Positions 21,735-25,473 of a stretch of DNA of 64,000 nt are shown here, piece after piece (the stretch's first letter is position 1; every line of letters starts with the position of its first letter). A model generated the notes under the pieces. It saw only the letters and a program-made list of their open reading frames with translations. It made no database searches and was not told the origin of the DNA. The DNA comes from Botrytis cinerea B05.10 (lineage: Eukaryota; Ascomycota; Leotiomycetes; Helotiales; Sclerotiniaceae), in the NCBI RefSeq assembly GCF_000143535.2, contig NC_037314.1, forward strand, positions 62,001 to 126,000, given 5' to 3'. The position numbers and the translations under genes are program-made.

Positions 21735-24700
21735 ATGGCCGACGAAGTTTACGAGGGTGCCATTGGTATCGATCTTGGTAAGATAAGAGTTTTTCCGAAT
21801 TTTGAGGATGGTGGATGAGGGGCATAATTTTCTCTTTGTCAAAATCTTCAAAAATCTCGCAACACTTCTTCAATATCAATAACGAATGCTAATCTATCTA
21901 CCGCGCGCAGGAACCACATACTCTTGTGTTGCTGTATACGAGGGAACCAATGTTGAGATCAGTACGTATTCCTCCTCTCCCGGAAAATCGATTTCGCAAA
22001 TTGGGCTTCGACAATCGAGATTTATACTGATCGATATCACCAGTTGCCAACGAGCAAGGTAGCTTCACCACCCCATCTTTCGTTTCCTTCACCGACAAGG
22101 AGCGTTTGATCGGTGAGTCTGCTAAGAACAATGCCGCCATGAACCCAAAGAACACCATCTTTGATATCAAGTCAGTATCTCGACTTTCGCGACGACAACA
22201 AGGTATTAATGAATCTACAGGCGTTTGATCGGAAGAAGATTCGATGACCCCCACACCACAAAGGTATTTACACGATTTTATTTCATCAAGATTGTCATGC
22301 ATCGAAATATTTTGGATTTTGCAACAGAAATTCTTCAATTTTCTCCCGGATGCCTTGTATCAATTAGCAGCCACTAACACATCCTCTAGGATATTCAATC
22401 ATGGCCTTTCACCGTTGTTGACAAGGATGGATCCCCATTCGTTCAAGTTGAGTATCTCGGAGAGGAGAAGACCTTCTCCCCACAAGAGATCTCATCTATG
22501 GTTTTGACCAAGGCAAGTTTTTCACACCCCACTCCTCAGTAGCGAGTTTGCTAACAATACTTGAATTACAGATGAAGGAAATCGCCGAGGTTAAGTTGGG
22601 CAAGAAGGTCGAGAAGGCCGTCATCACTGTTCCAGCTTACTTCAACGACAACCAACGTCAGGCTACCAAGGATGCTGGTGCCATCGCTGGTCTTAACGTT
22701 CTCCGTATCATCAACGAGCCTACTGCTGCTGCCATCGCTTACGGTCTCGGTGCTGGAAAATCCAACAAGGAGCGTAACGTTCTCATCTACGATCTCGGTG
22801 GTGGAACTTTCGATGTTTCCCTCCTTAACATTCAAGGTGGTGTCTTCACTGTCAAGGCTACTGCCGGTGACACCCATTTGGGAGGTCAAGATTTCGACAC
22901 CAACCTCCTTGATCACTTCAAGAAGGAGTTCACCAGAAAGACCAAGAAGGACTTGTCTAACGACCCCCGTGCTCTCCGTCGTCTCAGAACTGCTTGCGAA
23001 CGTGCTAAGAGAACTCTCTCCAACGGTGCTTCCACCAACGTTGAGATCGATTCCTTGTTCGATGGTGAGGACTTCAATGCTCAAATCACCCGTGCCAGAT
23101 TCGAGGACCTCAACGCCAAGGCCTTCTCCGGTACTTTGGACCCTGTTGCACAAGTTCTCAAGGATGCCAACATTGATAAGAGCAAGGTTGACGAAATCGT
23201 TCTTGTCGGTGGTTCTACCCGTATCCCAAAGATCCAAAAGCTCTTGAGCGAGTTCTTTGACAACAAGAAGTTGGAGAAGAGCATCAACCCTGATGAGGCT
23301 GTTGCTTACGGTGCTGCTGTTCAAGCTGGTATCCTTTCCGGAAAGGCTACCTCTGCTGAGACTGCTGACCTCCTCCTTTTGGATGTCGTCCCACTTTCCC
23401 TCGGTGTTGCCATGGAGGGTAACATCTTTGCCCCTGTCGTTACCAGAGGTCAAACTGTTCCAGTATGTTAAATCTTTACAAATTCTTTAAAAAGCAATAC
23501 TGACTCATTTACTCTAGACTATCAAGAAGAGGTTAGTTACAAACATTTCACGACTCATTAACACATTTTTTCAATGTTCTATTCTATTTCAATGTCTCAT
23601 CCCAAATTCGGCACTCTCATTTTGTTCAAGTTGAATTTACTCATTTGCTTTCAATGTTCATGTTTATTTCAACATTTATCTTTGGCCACCAACCCCATTT
23701 CCCCTCTTTCTTTCGTTCTTTCTATTCTCCGGCTTTTTTGTTCAAGTTAGCCACCCAGTCACCCTCCCTGCCTTTTTCTTTTCCGGCTTTTTTTTTCGGC
23801 TAGCCACCCCTCGGTGTAAAAACCGTTGTAATTATGTCGTCGCTCTTTCCCCTTGTGGAGACGTTGTTGGAGCTTCTTGTTCTGATTGTCTGGACGTGTT
23901 TGAGCAACCAGAAGTGGAAGAATTCGGTCTTTTTGACTGTTTTCCCGGATAAAGATGCGTTATTAGACGTCAAATCCGCCACTGGTCTCTCTTTCGCTCC
24001 TGCCCTCTTCGGAATCATGCAAGCTGCCACTCTCACCATTTCTTTCTTCAAGTCGCTCCCTCCTGTTTTGGACATGAAAGTCTGGGCCGTTTACGTTCTG
24101 GTCTTGGAAAAGCCGGGTTTTAAACCCTCCCTTTACTGTGGGTCAGGGACCGCCTCCGTGACGGGAGTTCGAAGCCGATTCGCCAAGTACGACAACGGCG
24201 GCGCCTTACCACGATATGTCAAGTGGGCCCAAGACAATGGATTCTCCATTGTCCACAAGGGACTCGTAGTTTGGTGTCCGATTCCGGAACCTGTGGACCG
24301 ACCCCGCGTTCGTGTGCTCTTTCTCGCTTTGGAAGCAACCCTCTCCTTTTTCTTCTGGACAATGAAAAGCTCTACCAAGGATTACAACATGGGTGAGTGT
24401 TGCTACTGGGCTCGAGACTCCTTTCCTTATGGTGGTTTGTGTTCACATTCCGCACTTTGGGAAGGAGTCGAGGGCCTAGAGCTCACTCCCCAGGAACTCT
24501 CCGATATCGCTGCTGCCTTGAAAGTCAAGAATAAGGAACGGCATAGTGCCTTCCATAAGAAGCAATTGGAGGAGAATCGCCCCGCGTATCGCTCCCGTCA
24601 AAACAAGAACTCAACCTCCTTCCGAAAGAAGAATGTGGACAAGGTCCACAGAACCAATGGCGAGTCCGCTACCAAGGCCAAGGATTCTGGTCGCTTCTCT

Positions 24701-25473
24701 TGCGGTACTTGCAACTTCTCCTTTAAATCGCAGTCCGACCTCAATCGGCACAATGGCAAGGCTAGGCACTTAGCCAAAGTGGCTGCCGCTTCCAAATCGG
24801 GTTAGCGCCCTCACTTTTTTGGAGTTTGCCGAATTTCCCAATGTTCGAAACTTCGCTCAACAATCGCTTTCTCATAAATGTTCAACAACAACGACGACGA
24901 TAGCTAATTAAACCCTTTAGAACCTTCACCACAGTAGCAGACAACCAGCAAACAGTCCAGTTCCCAGTTTTCCAAGGAGAACGTGTCAACTGCGAAGACA
25001 ACACCTCCCTCGGAGAGTTCACCCTTGCTCCTATTCCACCAATGAAGGCTGGTGATGCAGTTCTCGAGGTCGTTTTCGAAGTCGATGTCAACGGTATCTT
25101 GAAGGTCACTGCTACTGAGAAGACTTCCGGACGTAGCGCCAACATCACCATCGCCAACTCCGTCGGTAAACTCTCATCCTCCGAGATCGAGAAGATGGTT
25201 GCAGATGCAGCTGAGTTCAAGAGCAGTGATGACGCTTTCAGCAAGAGATTCGAGTCCAAGCAACAACTTGAGTCATACATTTCAAGAGTTGAGGAGATCA
25301 TCTCCGACCCAACTATGTCCATCAAGTTCAAGCGTGGCAACAAGGAGAAGATTGAGTCTGCTTTGAGCGATGCTATGGCTCAACTCGAGATTGAGGATTC
25401 TACTTCTGATGACTTGAAGAAGAAGGAACTTGCTTTGAAGAGAGCTGTCACCAAGGCCATGTCCACTCGTTAA
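21735..25473 (+). CDS. SSB1: Ssb-type ribosome-associated Hsp70
   Basis: The protein has 614 residues in eight exons: 21735-21777, 21911-21961, 22044-22170, 22221-22263, 22390-22512, 22572-23462, 23518-23531, 24921-25473. Ssb chaperones bind the ribosome with the RAC co-chaperone and fold nascent chains. The nucleotide-binding domain shows [14 protein letters not shown], the [13 protein letters not shown] phosphate loop, [11 protein letters not shown] and [11 protein letters not shown]. The substrate domain begins at TIKKRTFTT, and the C-terminus KAMSTR is of Ssb type, not EEVD. Intron 5 (22513-22571) has a GC donor (AAG|GCAAGT). Exon 7 is only 14 nt. The last intron is 1389 nt and houses another gene. 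Codon use is strongly C-ending, as expected for high expression. The exon chain is continuous in frame and matches the usual family length of about 613. Confidence 0.96.
23729..23815 (+). repeat. Duplicated motif ahead of the nested ORF (CCGGC-T run, then TAGCCACCC)
   Basis: Two copies, beginning at about 23729 and 23783, each have CCGGC plus a T run, then TAGCCACCC. They are 54 bp apart and end just before the nested ORF's leader. They may be an internal duplication within the insert or promoter elements. Confidence 0.6.
23834..24805 (+). CDS. Intron-nested GIY-YIG-like / C2H2 zinc-finger protein (putative homing-type nuclease)
   Basis: This is an intact 323-codon ORF in the sense direction inside the last Ssb intron. 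Residues 1-80 are hydrophobic and unassigned. Residues 85-106 read AVYVLVLE followed by YCGSGT, resembling the two GIY and YIG strands. [10 protein letters not shown] (111-120) offers the usual Arg, and the Glu in [12 protein letters not shown] (E167) is a candidate metal ligand. Next comes a CC-YW-RD and GLCSHS segment with possible zinc-binding Cys (189-203). A basic linker then leads to a finger C290-x2-C293-x12-H306-x5-H312. GIY-YIG enzymes cut DNA, and fingers commonly add sequence binding. The ORF looks more GC-rich than the flanking intron. A TAG lies in frame shortly upstream, so ATG 23834 is the first start. I recall similar layouts as a multicopy family in Leotiomycetes, but could not verify this. 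Nuclease activity and mobility are inference. Confidence 0.72.
   Translation: MSSLFPLVETLLELLVLIVWTCLSNQKWKNSVFLTVFPDKDALLDVKSATGLSFAPALFGIMQAATLTISFFKSLPPVLDMKVWAVYVLVLEKPGFKPSLYCGSGTASVTGVRSRFAKYDNGGALPRYVKWAQDNGFSIVHKGLVVWCPIPEPVDRPRVRVLFLALEATLSFFFWTMKSSTKDYNMGECCYWARDSFPYGGLCSHSALWEGVEGLELTPQELSDIAAALKVKNKERHSAFHKKQLEENRPAYRSRQNKNSTSFRKKNVDKVHRTNGESATKAKDSGRFSCGTCNFSFKSQSDLNRHNGKARHLAKVAAASKSG

Follow-up and report, generated by a model that had tools for sequence, protein, structure and literature searches.

What is an intact, nuclease-like open reading frame (ORF) doing inside a spliceosomal intron of a chromosomal fungal gene? The question is raised by a 64,000-nucleotide stretch of Botrytis cinerea B05.10 (contig NC_037314.1, positions 62,001 to 126,000 of the forward strand; hereafter the window), where the last intron of the gene for the ribosome-associated Hsp70 Ssb contains such a frame. 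A sequence-only reading of the window had taken it for a selfish, homing-type gene. Our analysis points the same way: the Ssb intron is very probably a nuclear spliceosomal homing intron, and one of a family in filamentous ascomycetes. A homing-type, selfish element is supported by at least three intronic copies in one genome, insertion sites that correspond between paralogous genes, filled as well as empty sites, and recoded exon flanks.

The element-bearing intron of Ssb

Ssb occupies 21735..25473 on the + strand in eight exons (21735-21777, 21911-21961, 22044-22170, 22221-22263, 22390-22512, 22572-23462, 23518-23531, and 24921-25473). The gene was identified from the spliced coding sequence, whose 614-residue product aligns with SSB1 of Chaetomium (7olc) over residues 1-614 in both. 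Its seven introns measure, in order, 133, 82, 50, 126, 59, 55, and 1389 nt. Exon assembly and the SSB1 alignment placed the last one exactly where the sequence-only reading had put it (23532..24920, +), and its length is indeed unusual within Ssb, the other six introns spanning 50-133 nt. It is a phase 2 intron that runs from GTTAGT to TTTAG and carries a branch-point-like CTAAT at 24904..24908 (+), starting 17 nt upstream of the intron end. As an anatomical observation, an Ssb intron with a nested intact ORF is confirmed.

GIY-YIG enzymes, to which the nested protein appears to belong (see below), are classic passengers of group I and group II introns, and a self-splicing intron might have moved into nuclear genes together with its endonuclease. 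Rfam gave no match for positions 23400-25100 at E values up to 1; at gathering score, the window, the ATP2 locus (L007) and L008 were all without a match. By this measure the element introns have no group I or group II catalytic RNA core; their ends are GT-AG or GC-AG, with CTAAT. On the Rfam negatives we ruled out a self-splicing intron, an origin that we find scarcely credible.

The Ssb intron, the one intron so analyzed, was searched for repeats together with 50 nt of flanking sequence at either end, and no terminal inverted repeats were found. The search returned four internal short inverted pairs (12-21 nt, 76-92%) and weak direct repeats located 5′ of the ORF. Inverted pairs flank the ORF at 23604-23618/24822-24836 (15 nt, 87%) and 23668-23679/24874-24885 (12 nt, 92%); they could reflect chance or aid the pairing of the intron ends. 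The exon before the element intron is very small, as the short Ssb intron 23463-23517 stops 14 nt upstream. A very small exon also adjoins the element intron of ATP2 (L007), where a 59-nt intron starts 40 nt downstream.

A nuclease-like protein encoded within the intron

The nested ORF extends from 23834 to 24805 (+), with 323 uninterrupted codons from ATG to stop, as the sequence-only reading had described. It has its own stop and a frame that differs from those of both exon 7 and exon 8, and so is not simply part of an Ssb isoform; read-through of Ssb was ruled out on this ground. Nor is it in frame with the host protein, as an intein would be. A chance ORF was rejected as well: none of 5000 first-order Markov simulations of the intron contained a frame of 323 codons. 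Since the longest simulated frame reached 321 codons, the homology to the protein family described below is a stronger argument than length statistics.

The predicted fold and the retained motif residues support a GIY-YIG-fold nuclease. In the model, which is confident for the window protein, residues 82-211 (24077..24466, +) form an alpha/beta domain whose best structural match in the PDB is the catalytic domain of I-TevI; a helical part precedes it. The layout suggested earlier was located at AVY (residues 85-87, 24086-24094) and YCG (residues 101-103, 24134-24142), together spanning 24086..24142 (+), followed by Arg115 (24176..24178, +) and Glu167 (24332..24334, +). Both tyrosines, the arginine and a glutamate in a following helix, as in the GIY-YIG superfamily, are thus present, E167 sitting within the predicted helix 153-173 as a putative metal-binding residue. 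Across the family, Y87 is found in 89 of 89 members, Y101 in 84, R115 in all 89, and E167 in 86. The roles considered for the four are those of their equivalents in GIY-YIG enzymes.

Sequence profiles did not detect this identity, so that the proposed GIY-YIG assignment stands by predicted fold and residues and not by profile. PF01541, recognition by which is a means of detection and does not define the superfamily, matched neither the window protein (P0001) nor ten chosen members or 13 core pieces, and was absent from the 25 Pfam families listed, out of 139, for the 88-row family alignment. It also gave no hit in the B. cinerea genome at an E value of 0.001, a search that genes split by introns could escape. 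For the window protein, NCBIfam assigned no family and PHROGs yielded one weak match of unknown function. Searches of the PDB by sequence and by profile yielded nothing beyond zinc fingers and weak matches to unrelated chains (in one case among the best 60 of 272 matches). Against viral models, Foldseek found nothing at an E value of 0.001 or better; the first match listed, with E = 0.01, was a homing endonuclease of a phage, and GIY-YIG or homing appeared in the names of several more.

The C-terminal C2H2 finger, a putative DNA-binding part, was placed at residues 288-312 (24695..24769, +), with C290, C293, H306, and H312 assigned by eye. The residues of the single finger claimed before are there, but the Pfam C2H2 match (residues 288-306) scores 19.4 bits, under the cut-off of 25.2. 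Matches to zf-C2H2_jaz occurred in 76 of 88 family members at E values up to 1, and zinc-finger structures matched the model over residues 268-323.

Copies in the B. cinerea genome

The earlier suggestion to look for paralogues in other introns proved fruitful. The B. cinerea assembly (42.6 Mb, 18 contigs) contains at least two further full-length members, a lower bound because the searches score best candidates only. Both are intronic. One lies in ATP2 (F1-ATPase beta), in an intron of 2164 nt without which the host frame is continuous over the 413 codons assembled; the other lies in VMA1 (V-ATPase A subunit), in a GC-AG intron of 1715 nt, with a continuous host frame over 537 assembled codons. 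Each intron has a CTAAT starting 23 nt upstream of its end. The ATP2-intron ORF is 48% identical to that of VMA1 and 33% identical to that of Ssb, and outside the ORFs the three introns share no convincing sequence. Weak matches on C6, C12, and C14, which reach no further than the finger-bearing C-terminal region of the query, were not counted.

The ATP2-intron ORF (L007:3865-5592, minus strand) has an N-terminal extension of approximately 195 residues with repeated segments and internal DNA repeats, which is absent from most relatives inspected. On C7 (L009, G000:C7:306500-315500), a 247-bp fragment (C7:310919-311165) is 87% identical to window positions 23682-23930 and comprises the 5′ flank and first 33 codons of the Ssb element ORF. 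Coding positions agree at 92 of 97 and non-coding ones at 130 of 143, with 16 gap columns. The deposited B. cinerea gene model P0034 begins at the ATG of this fragment, and the gene around it looks, by sequence, like an MFS transporter.

Relatives fused to host genes in other fungi

A second protein search scored the 7996 candidates with the most shared words. The family set excludes P0034 (a fragment) and P0035 (the ATP2 ORF of the same genome), and 89 of 90 proteins yielded the core domain. Ten deposited gene models fuse a family member to host sequence, and the hosts outside B. cinerea rest on such models. An Alternaria alternata protein (P0015) rejoins Ssb at TFTTVADNQ, as in the window, and looks like a gene-prediction fusion of ORF and exon. 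ATP2 is the host in Elsinoe, Ascochyta, Elasticomyces, and Alternaria (P0037, P0044, P0056, and P0064, respectively), VMA1 in Cadophora (P0058), aconitase in Lachnellula (P0078), carbamoyl-phosphate synthase (CPA2) in Fusarium (P0087), pyruvate carboxylase in Oculimacula (P0089), and ATP1 in Lachnellula (P0090). For P0071 and P0075, the host gene appears in the protein name only. Family members are thereby found in seven different conserved host genes, in fungi from several classes of Pezizomycotina.

In Colletotrichum kahawae, P0074 (named GIY-YIG domain-containing in UniRef) has the core domain twice, at residues 106-225 and 249-426, perhaps because gene prediction merged two elements. Viral (IMG/VR) and prokaryotic contigs gave four and one pattern matches, respectively, none confirmed by tblastn, and we therefore make no claim of an origin shared with viral elements.

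Filled and empty target sites

The insertion points in ATP2 (after ACTGGC) and VMA1 (after ACTG) fall at TG|LTI.E.FR in both paralogues, 2 nt apart. In the ATP1 gene model P0090, the member lies near the equivalent position, APFT(G)|(T)SMGEWFRD, with a precision of a residue or two. Sites also recur between species: the Ssb 3′ junction is common to the window and the Alternaria model, the ATP2 site to B. cinerea and the Elsinoe and Alternaria models, and the VMA1 site to B. cinerea and the Cadophora model. The alpha, beta, and A subunits of the ATPases diverged before eukaryotes arose. A single inherited intron therefore cannot explain the homologous sites, whereas insertion on several occasions at a recognised sequence can.

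The B. cinerea genome has three filled sites (Ssb, ATP2, and VMA1), and its coding sequence is continuous at all four sites that carry a member in other species: aconitase SGWATPKDIILKV, CPA2 DTADKLYFEEL, ATP1 APFTGTSIGEYFRD, and pyruvate carboxylase VRLDGGNGFAGAV. For aconitase, CPA2, and pyruvate carboxylase, one junction is visible in the foreign model and the exact position could be slightly off.

The family tree has 88 rows; P0087, and with it CPA2, was left out because its core is shorter than 120 residues. The tree divides into two supported halves (both 100 SH-aLRT), one with every labelled ATP1, ATP2, and VMA1 member and the other with the labelled members from Ssb, aconitase, and pyruvate carboxylase; Alternaria and Lachnellula are genera represented in both. 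P0075, named pyruvate carboxylase, sits in the half opposite to P0089. Twenty rows form a supported group (96) that unites the VMA1 pair with two of the five ATP2 members. If labelled rows alone are considered, one branch sets apart the two Ssb members (87) and another the two VMA1 members (80), and ATP2 requires two changes. The ATP1 member clusters with P0071 and P0075 (95), away from ATP2 and VMA1, so the ATP1 site was perhaps reached separately. Host labels change five times on the tree, the minimum, a value equally low in 4 of 200 shuffles; for single host groups this held in 14 (ATP2), 46 (Ssb), and 42 (VMA1) of 500. Forty of the 84 inner branches are unresolved.

Recoded exon flanks downstream of the insertions

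Codon usage next to the insertions was scored with weights from the three host genes, each codon window being excluded from its own reference, over all of Ssb and the 413 and 537 assembled codons of ATP2 and VMA1. The ten codons 3′ of the insertion ranked 7th from the bottom of 605 in Ssb, 2nd of 404 in ATP2, and 1st of 528 in VMA1; the ten codons upstream ranked 464th, 92nd, and 380th, respectively. Fisher's combined p was 1.6 × 10−5 downstream and 0.66 upstream, values that are approximate given overlapping windows. The lowest codon window of each gene starts at most three codons (ten-codon windows) or four codons (15-codon windows) from the insertion. Downstream of the Ssb element intron the codon value was 0.46, compared with 0.65-0.83 at the other six Ssb introns; it was 0.52 at the next ATP2 intron, 14 codons on, and 0.82 at an earlier VMA1 intron. 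At the four empty sites we obtained 0.58, 0.93, 0.67, and 0.50 (ranks 26/203, 300/320, 174/459, and 49/296; combined p = 0.28), and no empty site was the lowest window of its frame.

In Ssb, the recoded tract covers 15 codons (24922..24966, +), including the rare ACA, GTA, GCA, and CAG, and is a possible co-conversion footprint judging from its codons. The ATP2 and VMA1 flanks have in common the rare pair ACG ATA right after the insertion and match at 35 of the 48 nt surrounding it, which partly reflects the similarity of the two proteins at this place; among the codons analyzed, ACG and ATA each occur once outside the recoded tracts. The protein is left unchanged in Ssb and VMA1 and nearly so in ATP2, where LTIAEEFREQ-GQDV replaces the LTIAEYFRDEEGQDV of the five PDB alignments listed, with one residue lost and several changed. 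In the Elsinoe, Alternaria, and Elasticomyces models the corresponding ATP2 stretch reads EYFRDEEGQDV, again different from B. cinerea. ATA and TTA codons are generally poor for strongly expressed genes, so that selection against re-cutting would explain the tract better than copying from another species' gene. A downstream co-conversion tract does mark the homing cox1 intron of plants, according to the passages of PMC3192709 used here.

These data bear on whether the nuclease is instead a host gene, nested in the intron by chance and kept for a cellular job such as DNA repair, with no homing at all. Some GIY-YIG proteins, e.g. Slx1 and UvrC, are repair enzymes; both are among the structural matches of the model, and the family keeps an intact ORF and its motif residues, as such a role would lead one to expect. 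Host function does not predict that members occupy seven different conserved genes, that their sites correspond between ATPase paralogues, that other sites stand empty in the same genome, or that 3′ flanks are recoded at the filled and not at the four empty sites. All of this counts against a host role, which we consider improbable.

Proposed mechanism

From the sequences we infer splicing in vivo, expression, cleavage, homing, and an anti-cleavage role of the recoding, as follows. The host would transcribe the element intron and splice it in the normal way; as its GT-AG ends and CTAAT are ordinary signals for the spliceosome, the host gene should suffer little. The nuclease would recognise the conserved coding sequence of an intron-free allele, presumably binding through its finger and helical parts, and the GIY-YIG domain would cut that allele when the two meet in a cross or heterokaryon. 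Recombinational repair from the intron-bearing allele would then copy in the intron and co-convert the adjoining recoded 3′ exon, in which the DNA is changed and the protein kept, so that re-cutting would be prevented. Conserved motifs of important proteins are good targets because they hardly change. New genes may be reached through similar target sequences, the related ATPase genes VMA1 and ATP2 being the clearest case.

Some observations leave room for other readings. As the non-coding parts of the three introns have no clear sequence in common, different introns at the same spots are conceivable, and the partial C7 copy shows that pieces can land elsewhere. The introns might then have spread by another route, either introner-like DNA transposition or reverse splicing with reverse transcription, with the nuclease as passenger or mere break-maker. 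Break repair at a recognised sequence agrees with the 3′ recoding and with a target that ATP2 and VMA1 share to the codon (and ATP1 approximately), and the Ssb intron has no terminal inverted repeats; we consider spread by another route improbable. Known hosts cluster modestly on the tree, single groups being weaker than the joint test. Finally, the window copy has YCG in place of YIG, and homing endonucleases are expected to decay once fixed, with exceptions, in the account given by parts of PMC1654191. The element may once have homed and since become fixed and inactive in this species, a sub-case of the homing explanation and not exclusive of it. Against such inactivity stand the lack of any stop or frameshift, the retained Y87, R115, and E167, and the confident model, and we see inactivity as a lesser but real possibility.

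Relation to known mobile elements

The closest precedent for a spliceosomal homing intron is viral. In November 2025, GIY-YIG and other homing endonucleases were described in spliceosomal introns of mirusviruses (shintrons), an association that the authors state, in the passages drawn on, was unobserved before then (PMC12768974). As described in those passages, shintrons resemble the fungal elements in their spliceosomal donor and acceptor, nested endonuclease gene (GIY-YIG being among four types), missing group I/II signature, preferred conserved host genes, and inferred homing (PMC12768974). The corresponding features of the fungal elements are splice sites with a restored host frame in the assembled parts, a predicted nested endonuclease gene, no group I/II signature, and specificity for genes and sites. 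Shintrons reside in viral genomes, whereas the fungal elements occupy ascomycete chromosomal genes. The fungal elements also have C-terminal C2H2 fingers, which the viral ones may or may not share, paralogous ATPase sites, and a recoded 3′ flank. Viral shintrons would have their cellular counterpart in these introns, marked by the three features just named.

Unlike the GIY-YIG homing endonucleases of I-TevI type, which belong to phage and mitochondrial group I introns, the fungal protein is encoded in a spliceosomal intron, has no detectable sequence similarity to them, and places a helical part before and C2H2 fingers after the nuclease domain. Inteins of VMA1 and PRP8 are LAGLIDADG/Hint proteins removed at the protein level, and the VMA1 intein site presumably differs from that of the element intron. 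Like the fungal introns, these inteins are selfish and lie at conserved sites of conserved nuclear genes, as parts of PMC2814812 and PMC1508164 describe. The angiosperm cox1 group I intron shares a homing footprint in the exon just 3′, but is mitochondrial and self-splicing, and its tract is a donor conversion in the cited passages (PMC3192709), as opposed to the host-rare codons of the fungal flanks. In Ustilago maydis, too, the nuclear DNA of a fungus contains sequence of a GIY-YIG homing endonuclease; the insertion is a single broken copy of mitochondrial origin in a telomeric helicase gene, and the word 'spliceosomal' does not occur in the main text (PMC7593156). The Faustovirus capsid gene has two introns with GIY-YIG ORFs, among group I and potentially spliceosomal introns; it differs in being viral and in its non-canonical splice sites, and the passages cited leave the intron class of the ORF carriers unstated (PMC6247863).

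Among the open PMC papers listed, a set that leaves most subscription papers and preprints uncovered, we found no report of endonuclease-bearing spliceosomal introns in nuclear protein genes of cellular organisms. The arrangement had been called largely undescribed; this holds for cellular nuclear genes within that set, but not in general, in view of the mirusvirus precedent (PMC12768974, in part).

Implications

A further-reading version, for and against which we see the balance as even, is that filamentous ascomycetes hold active, retargetable homing introns made of a hiding spliceosomal intron, a GIY-YIG/C2H2 nuclease, and a cut-immune recoded exon, which moved between VMA1 and ATP2, and perhaps separately to ATP1, via a shared target. 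Such a three-part element would be a natural counterpart of the 'home-and-rescue' design, and its nucleases would form a new group of GIY-YIG enzymes with C2H2 fingers. The odd 'fusion' gene models of ATP2, aconitase, carbamoyl-phosphate synthase, and pyruvate carboxylase would be explained, as would intron sharing between distant species. The shintron idea would extend from uncultured viruses to cells, making homing-based intron gain testable in culturable fungi. Spliceosomal introns are usually treated as passive; if the interpretation is true, a nuclease-bearing family would provide a concrete route of intron gain at conserved sites.

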